Assembly (NCBI GenBank): GCA_017484085.1 | Contig: JAFUTW010000022.1 | Coordinates: 1 to 64,000 of the forward strand | Length of the DNA stretch: 64,000 nt | Origin: Clostridia bacterium | Lineage (GTDB): Bacteria; Bacillota; Clostridia; Christensenellales; Aristaeellaceae | Direction of reading: 5' to 3' | Shown: positions 26,376 to 35,114 of the stretch, piece after piece | Position numbering within the stretch: position 1 is the stretch's first letter | How the letters are laid out: every line of letters begins with the position of its first letter | Notes under the pieces: generated by a model | What the model saw: the letters and a program-made list of their open reading frames with translations, nothing else | Databases searched by the model: none | What the model was told of the DNA's origin: nothing | Position numbers and translations under genes: made by a program

Positions 26376-26675
26376 ATGACCAAGACTGAACTGATCGCAA
26401 AGGTCGCTGAGAGCGCGAACATCTCCAAGAAGGATGCCGGCGCTGCCGTCGCCGCCGTTTTCGGCGCCATCTCCGCAGAACTCGTCAAGGGCGAGAAGGT
26501 TTCCCTCATCGGCTTCGGCACCTTCGAAGTCCGTGAACGTCCTGCCCGTCAGGGCCGCAACCCCCAGACCGGCGAGTCCATCAAGATCAAGGCCAGCAAG
26601 GCGCCTGCCTTCAAGGCCGGCAAGGCTCTCAAGGATGCCGTGAACGCCCCCAAGAAGAAGAGCAAGAAGAAGTAA
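26376..26675 (+). CDS. hup: HU-family nucleoid protein
   Basis: The 99-residue DNA-binding protein starts [20 protein letters not shown] and carries the beta-arm signature [24 protein letters not shown] dimers bend and compact DNA. Compared with the usual 90-92 residues it has a short lysine-rich tail (APKKKSKKK) that should add non-specific DNA affinity. Strong AGGAGG site, strong promoter and strong terminator make a high-output single-gene unit. Confidence 0.96.
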
Positions 26676-26694
26676 TTCATCCGATTGCAAAAGA

Positions 26695-26727
26695 GGATCC
26701 GGAAGCGACGCTTCCGGATCCTTTTAT
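26695..26727 (+). terminator. Terminator of the HU gene
   Basis: Perfect 12-bp stem GGATCCGGAAGC / GCTTCCGGATCC with loop GAC, then TTTTAT. The stop codon of the convergent CARF-nuclease gene lies at its 3' edge, so it probably serves both. Confidence 0.9.
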
Positions 26728-27884
26728 CATATACCCAGGATCATTTCGTTGATGCGCTCTCCGGCCGCCCCCGCGGTGAGATCCGCAAGGTCGATGACGC
26801 CGATTCTCAGCTCCGCCGCCCTGTTGCGGACTGCCGCATTGGCGTTTTCCGCCGTAACGATCGCCGCCCGGGCCATCTCGCCTCCGAAGCGGTCGCGCAG
26901 GACCGCAAGCTCGTTGAGCGCCTCTGTCTTGATCTCGCTTGTCTTGCAGCTGATGAAAAAGGGGGTCAGCCCTCTGCTGGCCATGACGTCGATCTCATTG
27001 GATACGCCGTCCTGCTCCTGCTGCCCCGCCCAGTCGACGACGACGCTCGTCCTGACGTCGTTGAACAGCCCCGTATCCAGGCACGTTTTATAGATATAGA
27101 GTTCCAGAACGCTGCCGACATCGCGTAGCCAGGCGCGGATCTGTTTGTCCGCGAAGGTAAAGCGCACCGTATCTCCAAGGCTGAGTCCGTTGATGAGGCC
27201 GATCTGCTTCAGCCCTTCCAGCGTTTCCGGATTCGCGCGTACGCGTTCCCTGCCGGCTTTCAGTTCCGGCTTCGCCTCTACCGTCAGCGACTCTTCCCCC
27301 TGCGAAGCTGCCTGCATATAGCCGACTGTCTGGTTCCAGTTCTTCCGCCCTGCAAGGAAGACGGAAAAGAAAGGCTCCATCATCCACATGTAGCGCGAGA
27401 GGATCCCGTTGTCCACGCGCCCCCTTCGCATGGAGCCGCCCGCCATGCGCAAAAAGTCTTCGACGGAGAAGCGGACAAAACCCGTATCCACCTCCGCATA
27501 CGGCGCCCCCTGCAGGTTAAAGAAGCGCCCTTTGCGCCGGCTGTAGGTGAAGACGGGCAGCTCATGCCCGGCGGCAAACAGGCCGCCCGCAAACAGCGCT
27601 GCGTCCGTGCCGCCGCAGATATCCAGCGCGCAGTCCTCATAGCGTTCCTGTATCGCCTGCAGGGCTTCCGCTACCGCCTGCGGATCGTTCATGTCCACTT
27701 TCTGCACGAGCAGCCGGCTGCCGATCCCGCGCCCCTCCAGAAAGGCACGCATCGCCGCAATCAGCGCTTCGTTTTCCGCTACTTCCGGCGAAGCCAGAAA
27801 GACCGTGCGCTCAGGCCGGAAGACCTCCGTCGCCAGGATGTTCTCCAGCGGCCGCTCATCGTAAAGCTCAATCAGCGTCTTCAT
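26727..27884 (-). CDS. Card1-like CARF-nuclease (DUF1887), stand-alone
   Basis: The 385-residue protein fits DUF1887, the family of the CRISPR ancillary nucleases Card1/Can2. Residues 1-130 look like a CARF domain: strand LIELYDERP, TVFLASPE, and the ligand-loop motif ICGGTDAALFAGG at 90-100. The C-terminal 130 residues look like a PD-(D/E)xK nuclease: Glu261 in GSVLELYIY, E297/D299 in NEIDVMAS, and C313-K314 in FFISCKT. A linker domain lies between. ATG 27884 has GGGAGG at six bases; the longer frame covers the promoter. No cas gene or repeat array is in the window. It has its own promoter and is divergent from a flavodoxin-type gene. The cyclic-oligonucleotide ligand is inferred from family only. 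Confidence 0.82.
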   Translation of the reverse strand: MKTLIELYDERPLENILATEVFRPERTVFLASPEVAENEALIAAMRAFLEGRGIGSRLLVQKVDMNDPQAVAEALQAIQERYEDCALDICGGTDAALFAGGLFAAGHELPVFTYSRRKGRFFNLQGAPYAEVDTGFVRFSVEDFLRMAGGSMRRGRVDNGILSRYMWMMEPFFSVFLAGRKNWNQTVGYMQAASQGEESLTVEAKPELKAGRERVRANPETLEGLKQIGLINGLSLGDTVRFTFADKQIRAWLRDVGSVLELYIYKTCLDTGLFNDVRTSVVVDWAGQQEQDGVSNEIDVMASRGLTPFFISCKTSEIKTEALNELAVLRDRFGGEMARAAIVTAENANAAVRNRAAELRIGVIDLADLTAGAAGERINEMILGI

Positions 27885-27914
27885 GGCTGACCTCCCTGTC
27901 CGTTGCTGCTGTTC

Positions 27915-27943
27915 ATTATATAGGCTGTTATTCCCGCCGTCAA
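27915..27943 (-). promoter_or_regulatory. Promoter of the CARF-nuclease gene
   Basis: On the minus strand TTGACG (27943-27938), 17 bases, TATAAT (27920-27915). The 5' leader is only about 25 bases. Confidence 0.75.
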
Positions 27944-27953
27944 TCGGCCCCTC

Positions 27954-27983
27954 TTGCGGGAAGAAGCCCCTGCGATTTATAAT
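27954..27983 (+). promoter_or_regulatory. Promoter of the flavodoxin-type reductase gene
   Basis: TTGCGG (27954-27959), 18 bases, TATAAT (27978-27983). Its -35 box is only ten bases from that of the divergent CARF-nuclease promoter, so occupancy of one may affect the other. Confidence 0.65.
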
Positions 27984-28016: not shown

Positions 28017-28634
28017 ATGAACGTTCTTTTGATCAACGCCAGCCCGCACCCGAACGGCAACACCGCCCTTGCGCTTCGCGAGATGGAAGCCGTCTTTAGC
28101 GCAGCCGGTGTCCACACGGATGTGATGCGCATCGGCAGCAGCGCGATCCGCGGCTGCATCGCCTGCGGCACCTGCGCGACCAAAGGCAGGTGCGTCTTTG
28201 AAGACGAGGTCAACCGGGCTGCGCCGCTGTTTGAAGCCGCGGACGGGCTCGTGCTGGCCACCCCCGTCTATTATGCTTCCGCCAATGCGACCCTGATCGC
28301 CTTCCTGGACAGGCTTTTCTACTCCACTTCCTTCGACAAGACGATGAAGGTCGGCGCGGGGATCGCCGTCGCCAGGCGCGGCGGCTGCAGCGCCACCTTC
28401 GACGAAATCAACAAGTACTTCACCATCTCAGGGATGCCCGTCGCTTCCTCCCAGTACTGGAACAGCGTGCACGGCCGTGCGCCCGGAGAGGCCGCCGAAG
28501 ATGCGGAAGGCCTGCAGACCGTACGGACGCTGGCCCGCAACATGGTCTTCCTCATGCGCGCCATCGGGGACGCGAAGGAAAAATACGGGCTCCCCGAAAA
28601 GGAAGAGCACGTCTGGACCCACTTCATCCATTGA
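28017..28634 (+). CDS. Flavodoxin-fold NAD(P)H-dependent oxidoreductase
   Basis: The 205-residue protein is an iron-sulfur-flavoprotein-like FMN reductase. LLINASPHPNGNTALAL at residues 4-20 binds the FMN phosphate; CIACGTCATKGRCVFEDE near residue 45 is a cysteine-rich segment seen in many family members, and ATPVYYASANATLIAFLDRLFY is the second FMN loop. The electron partner and substrate are not known; azo, nitro or quinone reduction is typical for relatives. ATG 28017 is chosen because GGTGAGGAGG lies before it. Single-gene unit. Confidence 0.87.
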   Translation: MNVLLINASPHPNGNTALALREMEAVFSAAGVHTDVMRIGSSAIRGCIACGTCATKGRCVFEDEVNRAAPLFEAADGLVLATPVYYASANATLIAFLDRLFYSTSFDKTMKVGAGIAVARRGGCSATFDEINKYFTISGMPVASSQYWNSVHGRAPGEAAEDAEGLQTVRTLARNMVFLMRAIGDAKEKYGLPEKEEHVWTHFIH

Positions 28635-31063: not shown

Positions 31064-31092
31064 TTGAATTCCCCACAGGCCGGCATTATAAT
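31064..31092 (+). promoter_or_regulatory. Promoter of the metF-metH operon
   Basis: TTGAAT (31064-31069), 17 bases, TATAAT (31087-31092). The leader is only about 25 bases, too short for a SAM or T-box riboswitch. Confidence 0.7.
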
Positions 31093-31123
31093 GATGGATA
31101 ATCAAGAAGCACGGAGGCCTTCT

Positions 31124-32008
31124 ATGAAACTGTCAGAACTGCTTTGCAGGGACCGCTACACCCTCTCCTTTGAGGTCTTCCCGCCCAAGACGGATGCCGC
31201 GTTCGCCAGCGTCGGCGAAGCCGCCGTCGCCTGTGCGCGGCTCTCCCCCGCCTTTGTCAGCGTCACCTACGGCGCTGGCGGCGGGCGCAGCCGCTTCACG
31301 CTGGAACTGGCGCAGCGCATCCACCGGGAAACCGGCGTGCCCACACTGGCCCACCTCACCTGTGTTTCCTCCACCCGGGAGACGGTGGAAGCCCAGATTG
31401 CCGCCATGCGTGAGGCCGGCATCGAAAACGTGATGGCCCTGCGCGGCGATCTCACCCCCGAGATGGAAGAGCAGGACCGCTCCGGCTGGCATTACCGCCA
31501 CGCCGTTGAACTGGTGCGCGAGCTCCGGGAAAGCGGAGCGGATTTCTGCATCGGCGGCGCGTGTTATCCGGAAGTGCATCCCGAAAGTGCGAGCCAGAAG
31601 GAAGATATTCTCCGCCTGCGCGAGAAGGTCGACGCCGGCTGCGATTTTCTCACCACGCAGATGTTCTTTGACAACAATCTGTTCTACAGCTTTCTCTATA
31701 AGATCCGTGAGGCGGGCATCACCGTGCCTGTGCTGCCCGGCATCATGCCCATCACGAGCGCGACCCAGATCGACCGCGCCATCCACCTCTCCGGCTCCTT
31801 CATGCCGCAGCGCTTCCGCACTCTCGTGGACCGGTTCGGCAACACGCCGGAGGCCATGAAGCAGGCCGGCATCGCCTATGCGACGGATCAGATCATCGAT
31901 CTGTTCGCCAACGGCATCCGCAACGTCCACATCTATACGATGAACAAGCCGGAGGTGGCGGGCGCCATTCAGCGCAACGTTTCGGCCATCCTCGGCCTGC
32001 CGCTGTGA
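31124..32008 (+). CDS. metF: 5,10-Methylenetetrahydrofolate reductase
   Basis: The 294-residue flavoprotein reduces methylene-THF to methyl-THF for methionine synthesis. Family landmarks are LSFEVFPPKTDA at the N-terminus, FVSVTYGAGGG, LAHLTCVSSTRE, NVMALRGDLTP, FCIGGACYPEVHPES and DFLTTQMFFDN. ATG 31124 has GGAGG eight bases before it; the earlier in-frame ATG (31064) overlaps the promoter. Its stop overlaps the GTG start of the next gene, and metH follows, so the methyl donor and its user are co-expressed. Confidence 0.95.
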   Translation: MKLSELLCRDRYTLSFEVFPPKTDAAFASVGEAAVACARLSPAFVSVTYGAGGGRSRFTLELAQRIHRETGVPTLAHLTCVSSTRETVEAQIAAMREAGIENVMALRGDLTPEMEEQDRSGWHYRHAVELVRELRESGADFCIGGACYPEVHPESASQKEDILRLREKVDAGCDFLTTQMFFDNNLFYSFLYKIREAGITVPVLPGIMPITSATQIDRAIHLSGSFMPQRFRTLVDRFGNTPEAMKQAGIAYATDQIIDLFANGIRNVHIYTMNKPEVAGAIQRNVSAILGLPL

Positions 32009-32664
32009 ACGTCGCCTTTCCCGCGGAGCCACCGGTCAGCCGGCGCGAGGTCCTGCGCTACGCAGGATGCAGAAACGGCGAGGCGCAGGGGCTGCCGCTG
32101 GACGAATGTCTCCTGCTGCTCAAGGACCATCTGTCCTGCCGGGTGGTATGGGAAATCTTTCCCCTTTCTCTGGAGGGAGACGTAGTGGATCTCGGCTTTG
32201 CCCGCGTTGCCTCCGCGAAGCTCTCCTCCGCGCTCTCCGGCTGCCGGCAGGCCCTGGTCTTCGCCGCGACTGTCGGGCTGGGGATGGACAGGCTCATCGC
32301 CCGATACGAGCGCGTCAGCCCCGCAACAGCGCTGCTGCTGCACGCCATCGGCGCGGAGCGCATCGAAAGCCTGTGCGATGCTTTCTGCCGTGAGCGGGAT
32401 GAAGCGCTTTCTCCGTCCGGCCTTGCGCTGCGGCCGCGCTTCTCCCCGGGATACGGGGATCTTCCCCTTTCCTTTCAGCGGGACATCTTCCGCGCGCTGG
32501 AATGTGAAAAGCGGATCGGCCTCACGCTGACGGATACCCTGCTCATGTCCCCTTCCAAAAGCGTTACCGCCATTGCGGGCATCTCTCCGTGTCCCGCGCA
32601 GCCGGCGGGCGGCCGCTGTGCCGCCTGCGGCAAACCGGATTGTGCATTCAGACAGCAGTCCTGA
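32005..32664 (+). CDS. Methionine synthase reactivation-domain protein
   Basis: The 219-residue protein corresponds to the C-terminal activation (AdoMet-binding) domain of cobalamin-dependent methionine synthase, made here as a separate polypeptide. Supporting segments are REVLRYAGCRNGE near residue 15, VFAATVGLGMDRLI, LLLHAIGAERIESLCDAFC, RFSPGYGDLPLSFQRDIF (the R-x-S-P-G-Y motif for AdoMet), MSPSKSVTAIAGIS and a C-terminal CAACGKPDCAFR. The role is to re-methylate oxidised cobalamin in MetH. It starts at GTG 32005 inside the metF stop (GTGA) and lies 23 bases before metH. Confidence 0.88.
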   Translation: MNVAFPAEPPVSRREVLRYAGCRNGEAQGLPLDECLLLLKDHLSCRVVWEIFPLSLEGDVVDLGFARVASAKLSSALSGCRQALVFAATVGLGMDRLIARYERVSPATALLLHAIGAERIESLCDAFCRERDEALSPSGLALRPRFSPGYGDLPLSFQRDIFRALECEKRIGLTLTDTLLMSPSKSVTAIAGISPCPAQPAGGRCAACGKPDCAFRQQS

Positions 32665-32687
32665 CGGCAGAATCGAAAGGGTCTCAT

Positions 32688-35114
32688 ATGGATTTCACAA
32701 GCTTTCTCAAAAACAACATCGTTATGCTGGACGGCGGTATGGGCAGCCTGCTGCAGGCCCGCGGCCTGGCTGCCGGAGAAGCGCCGGAACGGTGGAACCT
32801 CACCCGCCCCGGGGATATTCTGGCCGTGCAGCGCGCCTACTTCGATGCGGGGTCCAATTTGGTGATCGCCAACACCTTCGGCGCCAATCCCCTCCGCTTC
32901 AGTGAAGAGGAGCTCTCCCGGATCATCCCCGCCGCCGTCGCCATCGCAAGGCAGGCCGCGGCCGAAAGCCTCGGCAGCCAGGAGAAGTTCGTCGCGCTGG
33001 ATGTCGGCCCCTGCGGGCAGCTGCTCGCCCCCTACGGGACGCTCGGCTTCGAGGAGGCTGTCCGCCTCTTTTCCAGGGCCGTCGCGCTGGGCGCCGCAGC
33101 CGGCGTGGACTGCATCTTCATCGAGACGATGAACGACAGCTACGAGACCAAGGCCGCACTGCTGGCCGCAAAGGAAACCTGTGACCTTCCCGTGATCGTC
33201 TCCAACGCGTACGGCGAGGACGGCAAGCTGATGACCGGCGCCTCGCCGGAGGCCATGGTCGCCATGCTGGAAGGGATGGGTGCCGCGGCCGTCGGCGTCA
33301 ACTGCTCCCTGGGGCCGGACGCGCTCGCGCCGGTCGTGAGGCGCTACCTTTCCGCCGCTTCCGTCCCCGTTCTGCTCAAGCCCAACGCAGGCCTTCCCCG
33401 TGTGGAAGACGGGCGGACGGTCTACGACGTCACTCCGGACGCTTTCGCGGCGTCCGTCTCTGAATTGGTGCGGGAAGGCGTCCGCCTCTGCGGCGGGTGC
33501 TGCGGCACGACCCCCGAATATATCGCCGCCCTGCGCGCCGGCATTGCCGGCATACAGCCGGTGCCGGTCGAGCCAAAGGATACGACCGTCGTCTCCTCCT
33601 ACACGCATGCGCTCACCTTCGGCAAAAGGCCGCTCGTCATCGGAGAACGCATCAATCCCACCGGCAAGAAGCGCTTTCGGCAGGCGCTCGCGGAGCGCGA
33701 TATGGGTTATCTTCTCTTCGAGGGCATCCGCCAGCAGGAGGCCGGCGCGGACATCCTGGACGTCAACGTCGGCGCTCCGGGCATCGACGAGCCTGCCCTG
33801 CTGGAAGAATCGGTCCGTGAAATCCAGGCCGTTCTGGATCTGCCGCTGTGTATCGACACCTCCGATCCCGCCGCGATGGAGCGGGCCATGCGCCTGTACA
33901 ACGGCAAGCCGCTGGTCAATTCCGTGAACGGCAAGCCGGAAAGTCTTGAGGCTGTGCTGCCGCTGGTCGCCAAATACGGCGGCGTGGTCATCGGCCTTAC
34001 GCTGGATGAAAACGGCATCCCGCCCACGGCACAGGGGCGCCTCGCAGTCGCGCGCCGCATCCTTGAAGCCGCACAGCGTTACGGCATCCCCCGAAAGAAC
34101 GTGATCTTCGATACCCTCACCATGACGGTCAGCGCCGCATCCGACGCGGCAGCCGTCACACTGGACAGCTTGGAAGGCGTCCGCCGGGAGCTCGGCTGCC
34201 ACACCTCGCTGGGCGTATCCAACATTTCCTTCGGGTTGCCTGCCCGCGACCGGGTGAACGCCGCCTTTTTCACGCTTGCCCTTGCGCGCGGGCTCTCCGC
34301 CGGCATCATCAATCCGCTCAGTGAAAGCATGATGGGCGCGCTGCGTGCCTACTGCGCGCTATCCGGTCTGGATGAAAGCTGTCTGGATTACGTGGCCTGG
34401 TCTCAGGCGCATCCCCTCACTGCCGGAGCAGAGGCCGCCAAGCCTGCCGCCGCAGGCCACGCAGCAGCTGCCGGTGAAGAGCCGGTTTCCGCTTTGCGCC
34501 GCGCGATCGAGCGCGGGCTGACCCGCGACGCCGCACGGCTGGCTGCCGAAGCGCTCCAGACCCGCGAGCCCCTGTCGCTCATCAGTGAAGAGGTCATTCC
34601 CGCGCTGAACGACGTCGGAGAGGGCTTTGAAAAAGGTCGGATTTTTCTCCCCCAGCTGATGATGGCCGCTGAGGCTGCCGGCAGCGCGTGCGCGGAGATC
34701 AAAGCCGCCCTCAAGGGCGGCAAGACGGCCTCCCGCAGCGCCTTCGTGCTGGCCACCGTTCAGGGCGACATCCACGACATCGGTAAGAACATCGTCCGCC
34801 TGCTGCTGGAAAACTACGGCTTCGCGGTGAACGACCTGGGCAAGGACGTCCCCCCGGAGACAGTGGCGGAGGCCGTTGTCCGCCTTCACGCCCCCCTGTG
34901 CGGCCTCTCCGCGCTGATGACCACGACCGTACCCGCCATGGAGGAGACCATCCGCCTGCTCCGTCAGCGCGCGCCCTGGTGCCGCATCGTGGTCGGCGGT
35001 GCGGTGCTGACGGAGGAGTATGCCAGGGCCATCGGCGCGGATGCCTACGGCAGGGACGCCATGGCCACCGTACGCTATGCTGAGCAGGTGGAAGCTGAAC
35101 TCTCCGCCGGATGA
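32688..35114 (+). CDS. metH: Cobalamin-dependent methionine synthase (without activation domain)
   Basis: The 808-residue enzyme moves the methyl group of methyl-THF to homocysteine. Domains in order: homocysteine-binding barrel (1-300; zinc cysteines in GVNCS and GGCCGTTP), pterin-binding barrel (about 310-570; GERINPTGKKRFR, DVNVGAPG), cobalamin cap (about 590-680) and cobalamin-binding Rossmann domain (DIHDIGKNIV with the lower-ligand histidine, and VVGGAVLT near the end). The usual fourth domain is missing and is supplied by the preceding gene. ATG 32688 is chosen by homology; GAAAGG lies upstream. The operon ends at a good terminator. Confidence 0.95.
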   Translation: MDFTSFLKNNIVMLDGGMGSLLQARGLAAGEAPERWNLTRPGDILAVQRAYFDAGSNLVIANTFGANPLRFSEEELSRIIPAAVAIARQAAAESLGSQEKFVALDVGPCGQLLAPYGTLGFEEAVRLFSRAVALGAAAGVDCIFIETMNDSYETKAALLAAKETCDLPVIVSNAYGEDGKLMTGASPEAMVAMLEGMGAAAVGVNCSLGPDALAPVVRRYLSAASVPVLLKPNAGLPRVEDGRTVYDVTPDAFAASVSELVREGVRLCGGCCGTTPEYIAALRAGIAGIQPVPVEPKDTTVVSSYTHALTFGKRPLVIGERINPTGKKRFRQALAERDMGYLLFEGIRQQEAGADILDVNVGAPGIDEPALLEESVREIQAVLDLPLCIDTSDPAAMERAMRLYNGKPLVNSVNGKPESLEAVLPLVAKYGGVVIGLTLDENGIPPTAQGRLAVARRILEAAQRYGIPRKNVIFDTLTMTVSAASDAAAVTLDSLEGVRRELGCHTSLGVSNISFGLPARDRVNAAFFTLALARGLSAGIINPLSESMMGALRAYCALSGLDESCLDYVAWSQAHPLTAGAEAAKPAAAGHAAAAGEEPVSALRRAIERGLTRDAARLAAEALQTREPLSLISEEVIPALNDVGEGFEKGRIFLPQLMMAAEAAGSACAEIKAALKGGKTASRSAFVLATVQGDIHDIGKNIVRLLLENYGFAVNDLGKDVPPETVAEAVVRLHAPLCGLSALMTTTVPAMEETIRLLRQRAPWCRIVVGGAVLTEEYARAIGADAYGRDAMATVRYAEQVEAELSAG

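Follow-up and report, generated by a model that had tools for sequence, protein, structure and literature searches.

A single-gene CARF nuclease of a gut bacterium whose altered sensor pocket suggests a signal other than that of its CRISPR relatives

CARF domains typically carry a Ser or Thr at the end of their first strand and a Lys or Arg after their fourth, and CARF genes outside CRISPR (clustered regularly interspaced short palindromic repeats) systems have been noted since 2014, according to PMC4012209. The same source describes the RtcR and RV2818 families as mostly devoid of the strand-4 Lys/Arg, with other ligands suggested for them. In the nuclease Can2, the conserved contacts to cyclic tetra-adenylate (cA4) are described as Ser19, Thr42, Lys99 and Tyr118, and the corresponding positions of VC1899 as Asp9, Asp34, Arg96 and Val115 (PMC7969007). 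Here we examine a gene for a Card1/Can2-like nuclease located at 26727..27884 (minus strand) of a 64,000-nucleotide stretch, hereafter the window, which comprises positions 1 to 64,000 of contig JAFUTW010000022.1 from a gut Clostridia bacterium (GCA_017484085.1). Its product is a complete relative of the enzymes that cut DNA or RNA when triggered by a CRISPR alarm, and its sensor domain suggests a different signal.

Family, fold and ligand pocket

The 385-residue product (ATG at 27884, stop ending at 26727) matched PF09002 (E 5.7e-9, residues 257–365) and the CARF4 model of PADLOC (E 1.3e-39, covering residues 1–382). Its AlphaFold 2 model (predicted local distance difference test 91.6) comprises a CARF and a nuclease fold and matched VC1899 and Can2 over the full length. 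A Rossmann-like N-terminal CARF domain (residues 1–145; 27450..27884, minus strand) followed by a linker and a C-terminal PD-(D/E)xK domain (together residues 161–385; 26727..27404, minus strand), all limits being approximate, is the architecture of the CARF4/DUF1887 family. Two sets of relatives were compared: the best 80 of 113 from a scan of genome contigs, which with the window make up 81 loci, and 45 sequences from an independent protein search, which share some members with the 81, among them the window's own copy. The nuclease residues E261, E297 and D299 (motif NEID) and K314 (motif SCK) are invariant in both sets (81/81 and 45/45), as are S312 and C313 in the 81 loci, so that the nuclease residues, represented in Can2 by E276/D278, are intact. 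Against a 76%-identical orthologue (L032), the ratio of nonsynonymous to synonymous substitutions (dN/dS, Nei-Gojobori style) was 0.17 at a dS of 0.94. We consider the family and nuclease assignment firm at the level of sequence and predicted fold. An earlier note on this DNA had recognised the CARF-like N-terminus with GGTDA at residues 91–95 and the set E261, E297/D299 and K314; both were borne out by the reading frame, the alignments and the structure prediction it had proposed as a check, which gave a CARF and a nuclease fold.

The sensor domain departs from the canonical pattern. Its strand-4 loop is GGTDA where the canonical loop is GGTK, and the hmmsearch alignment pairs Lys99 of Can2 with D94, a position held by Asp in 76 and Glu in five of the 81 loci and by Asp in 44 and Glu in one of the 45 proteins. 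Residue 9, at the end of strand 1, is Asp throughout (81/81 and 45/45); its pairing with Ser19 of Can2 is a three-residue ungapped extension past the hmmsearch alignment, with which the VC1899 numbering agrees. D9 and D/E94 thus stand in place of the Ser/Thr and Lys that hold the phosphates of cyclic oligoadenylate in type III effectors. The hairpin at residues 113–118, TYSRRK in the window, is mostly TYSR[KR][KR] (T113 in 81, Y114 in 78, S115 in 81, R116 in 68, K/R117 in 72 and K/R118 in 68 of the 81 loci), with Y114 lying roughly at the place of the phosphate-binding Tyr118 of Can2. The pocket region would therefore present one acidic and one basic side, its geometry and charge being judged from alignments. 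The replacement of the strand-4 Lys by Asp/Glu and of the strand-1 Ser/Thr by Asp suggests that the ligand is probably something other than a canonical cyclic oligoadenylate, and for the clade as a whole this appears likely. The possibility of another nucleotide signal, raised in the earlier note, gains support in that the phosphate-holding Lys is an invariant Asp/Glu; the note had overlooked both the anomaly of GGTDA itself and the gene's membership of a large, conserved clade.

An apparent invariance of the N-terminal peptide MKTLIELY(D) over the 80 loci was discarded as partly an artefact, the peptide (exact in 80/80) having served as one of the search patterns. Residues 2–5 and 8 vary among the 45 protein-search sequences (K2 in 35/45, Y8 in 40/45) and E6, L7 and D9 are constant (45/45). 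D88, G91 and G92 are likewise conserved in 45/45, and D88 in 80/81 of the locus set.

Distribution, signal synthases and genomic setting

The window's assembly (2.43 Mb, 49 contigs, 80.75% complete) contains a single PF09002 match. At E 0.001 or better, carriers numbered 67 of the 200 genomes sampled from the window's taxonomic family, its own included, 26 of the 103 high-quality genomes and 16 of 50 genera; the 67 take in two high-quality genomes with distant relatives only (G164, 31%; G115, 28%) and one weak partial match (G045). Two genera chosen for their many carriers have the nuclease in 10/12 genomes (g44; the two misses being 66% and 72% complete) and 8/8 genomes (g7), with the gene position varying among genomes inside both. 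Synteny is largely preserved between the window and L032, its closest relative. No relative was found in plasmids or phages (tblastn with the window protein, E 1e-5), and a scan of viral contigs with two peptide patterns matched 141 stretches, none of which encoded a relative. The nuclease looks more like a resident gene because of the 10/12 and 8/8 counts, an impression weakened by the choice of genera and by the low count of carriers in the window's own genus (2 of the 11 genomes sampled). The same family holds a second group of DUF1887 proteins lacking the strand-4 Lys (L184, L185 and L186, 28–31% identical), and the genome of L186 (G118) has both kinds.

No Cas10, RAMP, mCpol or SMODS match was present in the window's own assembly, for which such a check had been proposed; with that assembly only 80.75% complete, the argument for a lack of CRISPR rests on its relatives. 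Across the 200 family genomes, the Cas10 palm domain (PF22335) exceeded its cut-off in nine (25 at E 0.001) and RAMP (PF03787) did so in seven. Two of the 67 carriers had Cas10 over the cut-off, G101 and, borderline, G060 (26.2 bits; 27.2 with neighbours), three had it below (G079, G083 and G163), and two had RAMP, G101 and, marginally, G199 (22.3 bits). Carriage of the nuclease showed no association with Cas10 (Fisher p = 0.72) or with RAMP (Fisher p = 1.0), and in G101 nuclease and Cas10 lie on separate contigs. Among the 26 high-quality carriers, RAMP was absent and Cas10 occurred once (G060, borderline), the sole high-quality genome with RAMP being a non-carrier (G148); three carriers assembled into 1–2 contigs at 97–98% completeness (G132, G163 and G185) have neither RAMP nor Cas10 over the cut-off. 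The Cas10 that accompanies a type III effector, alongside it or in its genome, was thus not found in the window's incomplete assembly and is not associated with the nuclease in the 200 genomes, and at the level of the population the case for independence from CRISPR is good. These counts speak against a type III locus elsewhere in the genome, one of the explanations offered earlier. SMODS and mCpol were each found in 0/200 family genomes, so that no co-occurring synthase of the CBASS (cyclic-oligonucleotide-based anti-phage signalling system) or Panoptes type was found; the SMODS model matched 3/14 control genomes and the mCpol model 1/14, below its cut-off and hence a weak control, and the SMODS, mCpol and Cas10 profiles are blind to a synthase of a new family.

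Comparison of neighbours revealed no conserved partner gene across the 81 loci, in keeping with the stand-alone nuclease described in the earlier note. The widest neighbour cluster, of ABC-transporter type, occurs at 21/81 loci in scattered positions. The only neighbours that keep their position, both in a group of related loci, are a metallo-beta-lactamase/RMMBL protein (at +1 in 8 loci) and a second protein (found at 9 loci, at +2 in 8 of them). At eight of the 81 loci (L070, L072, L077–L081 and L098) the nuclease gene converges with that of the metallo-beta-lactamase protein, 3–20 bases apart, and most such proteins at +1 have the RNA-specificity (RMMBL) domain. The 138 proteins encoded directly beside the nuclease at the 80 loci (80–900 aa, unsupported frames shorter than 150 aa removed, the two of the window not counted, no matched background) included no recurring defence gene, PADLOC matches being scattered with 1–2 members per family among the 25 families shown; they are mostly metabolic and matched 161 Pfam families. 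The flavodoxin gene adjacent to the nuclease was followed in 29 genomes with 25 loci read; except in the window and G116 it had none of the neighbouring genes next to it, and an unoccupied site within the window's genus was not demonstrable from these. The absence of a recurring defence neighbour and of copies on phages, plasmids or viral contigs, together with the near-universal carriage in two genera, leaves the abortive-infection role once suggested for the nuclease less supported.

The gene has its own minus-strand promoter, which matches the consensus at 11/12 bases: a -35 box TTGACG (27938..27943) and, after a 17-bp spacer, a -10 box TATAAT (27915..27920) 30 nt from the ATG, with a ribosome-binding-site-like AGGGAGG (27891..27897, minus strand) read by eye. 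Both boxes are identical in L032, the only one among the 30 best-scoring upstream regions listed to have both hexamers at equal distance. Promoter scores of at least 10 were reached by 22/80 family upstream regions versus about 2.6 from mononucleotide shuffles. The hexamer TTGCGG (27954–27959), ten bases from the -35 box, belongs to the divergent flanking gene, which encodes a flavodoxin-fold flavin mononucleotide reductase (28017..28634, plus strand) whose L032 orthologue matches PF03358; the near-consensus promoter with its short leader and this divergent neighbour had been described correctly. On the other side, an inverted repeat with 13-base arms, a 3-base loop and A and T runs at its flanks (26694..26722), noted by reading the sequence, resembles a bidirectional terminator between the nuclease gene and a convergent gene (26376..26675, plus strand) whose product looks like an HU-type DNA-binding protein. 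Both flanking genes stand outside the system. A few kilobases from the nuclease (31064–35114) lie genes that look methylenetetrahydrofolate reductase- and methionine synthase-like; they are not recurrent neighbours elsewhere, and their vicinity is probably coincidence.

Strand-4 residue, Cas10 and CorA loci in wider taxa

At the order level 20 of 396 genomes gave a match, 14 of them outside the window's family. All 14 proteins lack Lys/Arg at position 94 (9 being acidic) and keep the nuclease motif, and Cas10 occurs only in G540, on a different contig. At the phylum level 20 of 398 genomes besides the window's own match PF09002; the strand-4 residue was readable in 16 (Lys 9, Arg 1, other 6), with G807, G813, G852 and G875 dropped as unreadable, of which G852 and G813 are also less than 2 kb from a Cas10 match. 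Cas10 lies on the same contig in all nine Lys-type genomes, within 7 kb in seven and at 17.5 kb in G821 and 30.5 kb in G854, two single-contig genomes for which a shared contig means little. The Arg-type G908 has no Cas10. Only 2 of the 20 Lys-less proteins (6 + 14) are linked to Cas10, in G872 (Glu) and G732 (Thr); among the other 18 are G540 with its unlinked Cas10 and G777 with a borderline Cas10 (28.4 bits) on another contig. Lys-type proteins are thus linked to Cas10 in 9/9 cases and Lys-less ones in 2/20 (Fisher p = 3.5e-5, kinship ignored).

In a tree built from all columns by a quick method, 37 Lys-less rows, including the window, fell on one side of a branch with a Shimodaira–Hasegawa-like approximate likelihood ratio test (SH-aLRT) value of 96. 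A second tree was built without the strand-1 and strand-4 columns, minus four rows and with an Arcobacter protein included; it still kept the remaining 35 Lys-less rows together (bootstrap 81, SH-aLRT 98), a single origin being recovered in 80% of 200 bootstrap trees, which is below the usual 95. The G872 protein sits inside the Lys-less side on a long branch, beside L204–L208 and L210 (92/98). The Pro-type proteins of G703, G753 and G777 and the Thr-type one of G732 are on the other side, and Lys was therefore seemingly lost more than once. The three Pro-type proteins (L221, L218 and L225, respectively) form a separate DUF1887 group within a single genus; the sequence that follows strand 4 is SNG[NH]P, none of the three has a linked Cas10, and the group probably represents a second loss of Lys.

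The G872 gene is part of a III-B locus (L240:3083-13386) with the transcription order leuS, DUF1887, CorA, Cmr1, Cas10, Cmr3, Cmr4, Cmr6, a 187-aa protein and Cas6; open reading frames below 140 aa are unlisted there, and Cmr5 is therefore not visible. In the 187-aa protein we noted DEDD-exonuclease-like motifs by eye (DAETNG and HNALYDAA) and leave this as a suggestion. A DEDD identity found no support in Pfam, PADLOC or PDB, the best NCBIfam match being a 3'-5' exonuclease at E 0.2. A plasmid search with the G872 CorA returned four records, three equal-length Arcobacter plasmids and one Haliscomenobacter plasmid; the G872 Cas10 has GGED and two plasmid Cas10s have GGDD. The CorA III-B systems of the studied cluster are described as using S-adenosylmethionine (SAM)-AMP, which NrN, DEDD or lyase enzymes degrade, and the NrN(DHH)-CorA fusion carried by the Arcobacter plasmids is the arrangement named for A. 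butzleri (PMC10600005). On plasmid CP134857.1 (L246:2032-10617) a DUF1887 protein is encoded about 5 kb from the CorA of the NrN-CorA III-B locus, on the opposite strand; it lacks the Lys (DGLV), has Asp at the strand-1 end and falls outside the window's clade, on a very long branch. No DUF1887 is annotated in the Haliscomenobacter stretch. A profile built from three sequences, these same CorAs, gave no CorA match in the other Cas10-linked stretches examined, where a rough check for membrane helices picked out just two shorter proteins, of 322 aa (G715) and 286 aa (G738). Among readable Cas10-linked cases, the protein is Lys-less in 2/2 with CorA and has Lys in 9/10 without it (p = 0.045), a pairing that, at n = 2, weakly hints at SAM-AMP signalling. 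Against this link, one CorA effector clade has been proposed to be activated by cyclic hexa-adenylate (PMC11229360).

Cas10 proteins that make SAM-AMP are reported to have a conserved pair of acidic residues close to the methionine moiety of SAM, the region in which the local charge of the bound molecule goes from negative to positive (PMC10600005); an acidic exchange in the CARF pocket would be the receptor-side counterpart. One could imagine that the Lys-less, mostly acidic CARF4 nucleases are receptors for S-adenosyl-type messengers such as SAM-AMP and its kin, with the orphan clostridial clade, including the window gene, reading one made without Cas10 by a new synthase. We consider this rather unlikely, and SAM-AMP-like sensing is speculation; if true, it would mean a CRISPR-independent signalling pathway with its own synthase.

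Interpretation and comparison with known systems

Our preferred interpretation, which we hold to be probable, is that this one chromosomal gene by itself encodes an intact CARF-PD-(D/E)xK nuclease which acts independently of CRISPR and whose altered pocket takes a ligand other than a canonical cyclic oligoadenylate. The protein would most likely form a dimer, as do Can2 and Card1, with a small molecule binding in the CARF groove of the dimer and shifting the C-terminal nuclease domains so that nucleic acid is cut. The CARF pocket of the clostridial clade has lost the strand-4 Lys/Arg (Asp/Glu here) and the strand-1 Ser/Thr (Asp here), and the strand-5/6 hairpin has turned basic in the window's own group. 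The ligand would then be another signal, probably of adenosyl or nucleotide type, fitting the acidic and basic sides of the pocket, and the output may be damage or slowdown affecting the cell's own or invading nucleic acid. Several observations weigh against this interpretation. The basic hairpin (R116, K/R117 and K/R118) and Y114 could still allow some binding of phosphate. In the wider clade the pocket is not always acidic: the Lys-less order-level proteins L199–L203 have Val, Pro, Ala or Thr as residue 94 and lack Asp as residue 9, and in L204 (GGKD) a Lys stands one place earlier. The association of the Lys with Cas10 linkage takes no account of kinship. A few carriers have interrupted frames, with one internal TAG in G060 and two adjacent pieces in G002 and G011, which may be assembly errors. 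Finally, VC1899 is reported to be only a weak RNase, not regulated by cA4, and possibly degenerate (PMC7969007).

That last report, together with the broken frames, is what would favour a degenerate, cast-adrift defence enzyme of residual and unregulated function, as proposed for VC1899, the nearest solved relative; catalytic residues kept in every sequence of both sets, a dN/dS of 0.17 and retention across genera make it quite improbable. A constitutive or substrate-gated housekeeping nuclease, in which CARF is a structural dimerisation domain and which serves DNA repair or RNA turnover without any small-molecule signal, would fit the strong own promoter, the mostly metabolic neighbours, the carriage by nearly every genome of two genera and the lack of known signal synthases where these were searched. 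A scaffold would hardly need the pocket-side E6, D9, D88, G91 and G92 to be conserved like catalytic residues, however, and a housekeeping gene agrees poorly with 2/11 carriers in the own genus; we regard this alternative as unlikely.

The relatives of the nuclease are defence effectors and PADLOC lists the family, so the nuclease might be the effector of a short CBASS- or Panoptes-like pathway with its own unrecognised synthase elsewhere in the genome. This is highly unlikely given the absence of a conserved neighbour, the scattered PADLOC matches, the lack of copies on mobile elements and the 0/200 results for SMODS and mCpol, the last two subject to the weak mCpol control and to the invisibility of a new synthase family. 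An ordinary Card1/Can2 enzyme, using cyclic oligoadenylate from a type III system missed in the incomplete assembly or acquired intermittently, could appeal to the 80.75% completeness and to the few carriers with RAMP or with Cas10 above or below the cut-off. The high-quality carriers devoid of RAMP, the three near-complete genomes and the exchange of the pocket Lys for Asp/Glu leave it very little room. Taken as a whole, the earlier note's interpretation stands as regards a stand-alone nuclease that type III CRISPR does not explain, and falls short as regards abortive infection. Under the preferred interpretation of an altered sensor working without CRISPR, CARF sensing outside CRISPR becomes a directly testable question, and Lys versus Asp/Glu after strand 4 may serve to tell CARF proteins that use cyclic oligoadenylate from those that do not.

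The occurrence of CARF genes outside CRISPR was already known, as was the orphan VC1899; what is new is the sensor, whose pocket is altered throughout a large and conserved orphan clade that keeps its nuclease intact. The open-licence titles and abstracts surveyed, which leave aside most subscription papers, describe neither a Lys-less CARF4 clade nor CARF nucleases as SAM-AMP receptors. The likeness to CorA III-B systems lies in two Lys-less DUF1887 proteins in or near such loci (G872, whose protein is 27% identical to the nearest row in the tree, and plasmid CP134857); the difference is that no Cas10 was found in the window's incomplete assembly (CorA was not searched for there). With Can2, Card1 and Cdn1 the window protein has in common the domain architecture, the nuclease motif, the GG loop after strand 4 and the hairpin Tyr, and it differs from them in lacking the phosphate-holding Ser/Thr and Lys and a type III CRISPR locus. 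VC1899 (Vibrio cholerae, PDB 1XMX) is an orphan DUF1887 protein like the window's, with 17% identity, but keeps the basic Arg96 after strand 4 where the window's group has Asp/Glu. RtcR resembles the window protein in a CARF domain that is mostly without the strand-4 Lys/Arg and that works outside CRISPR; as described, it is an AAA+ regulator whose CARF binds 5' fragments of tRNA with 2',3'-cyclic phosphate ends, whereas the window protein is a nuclease.
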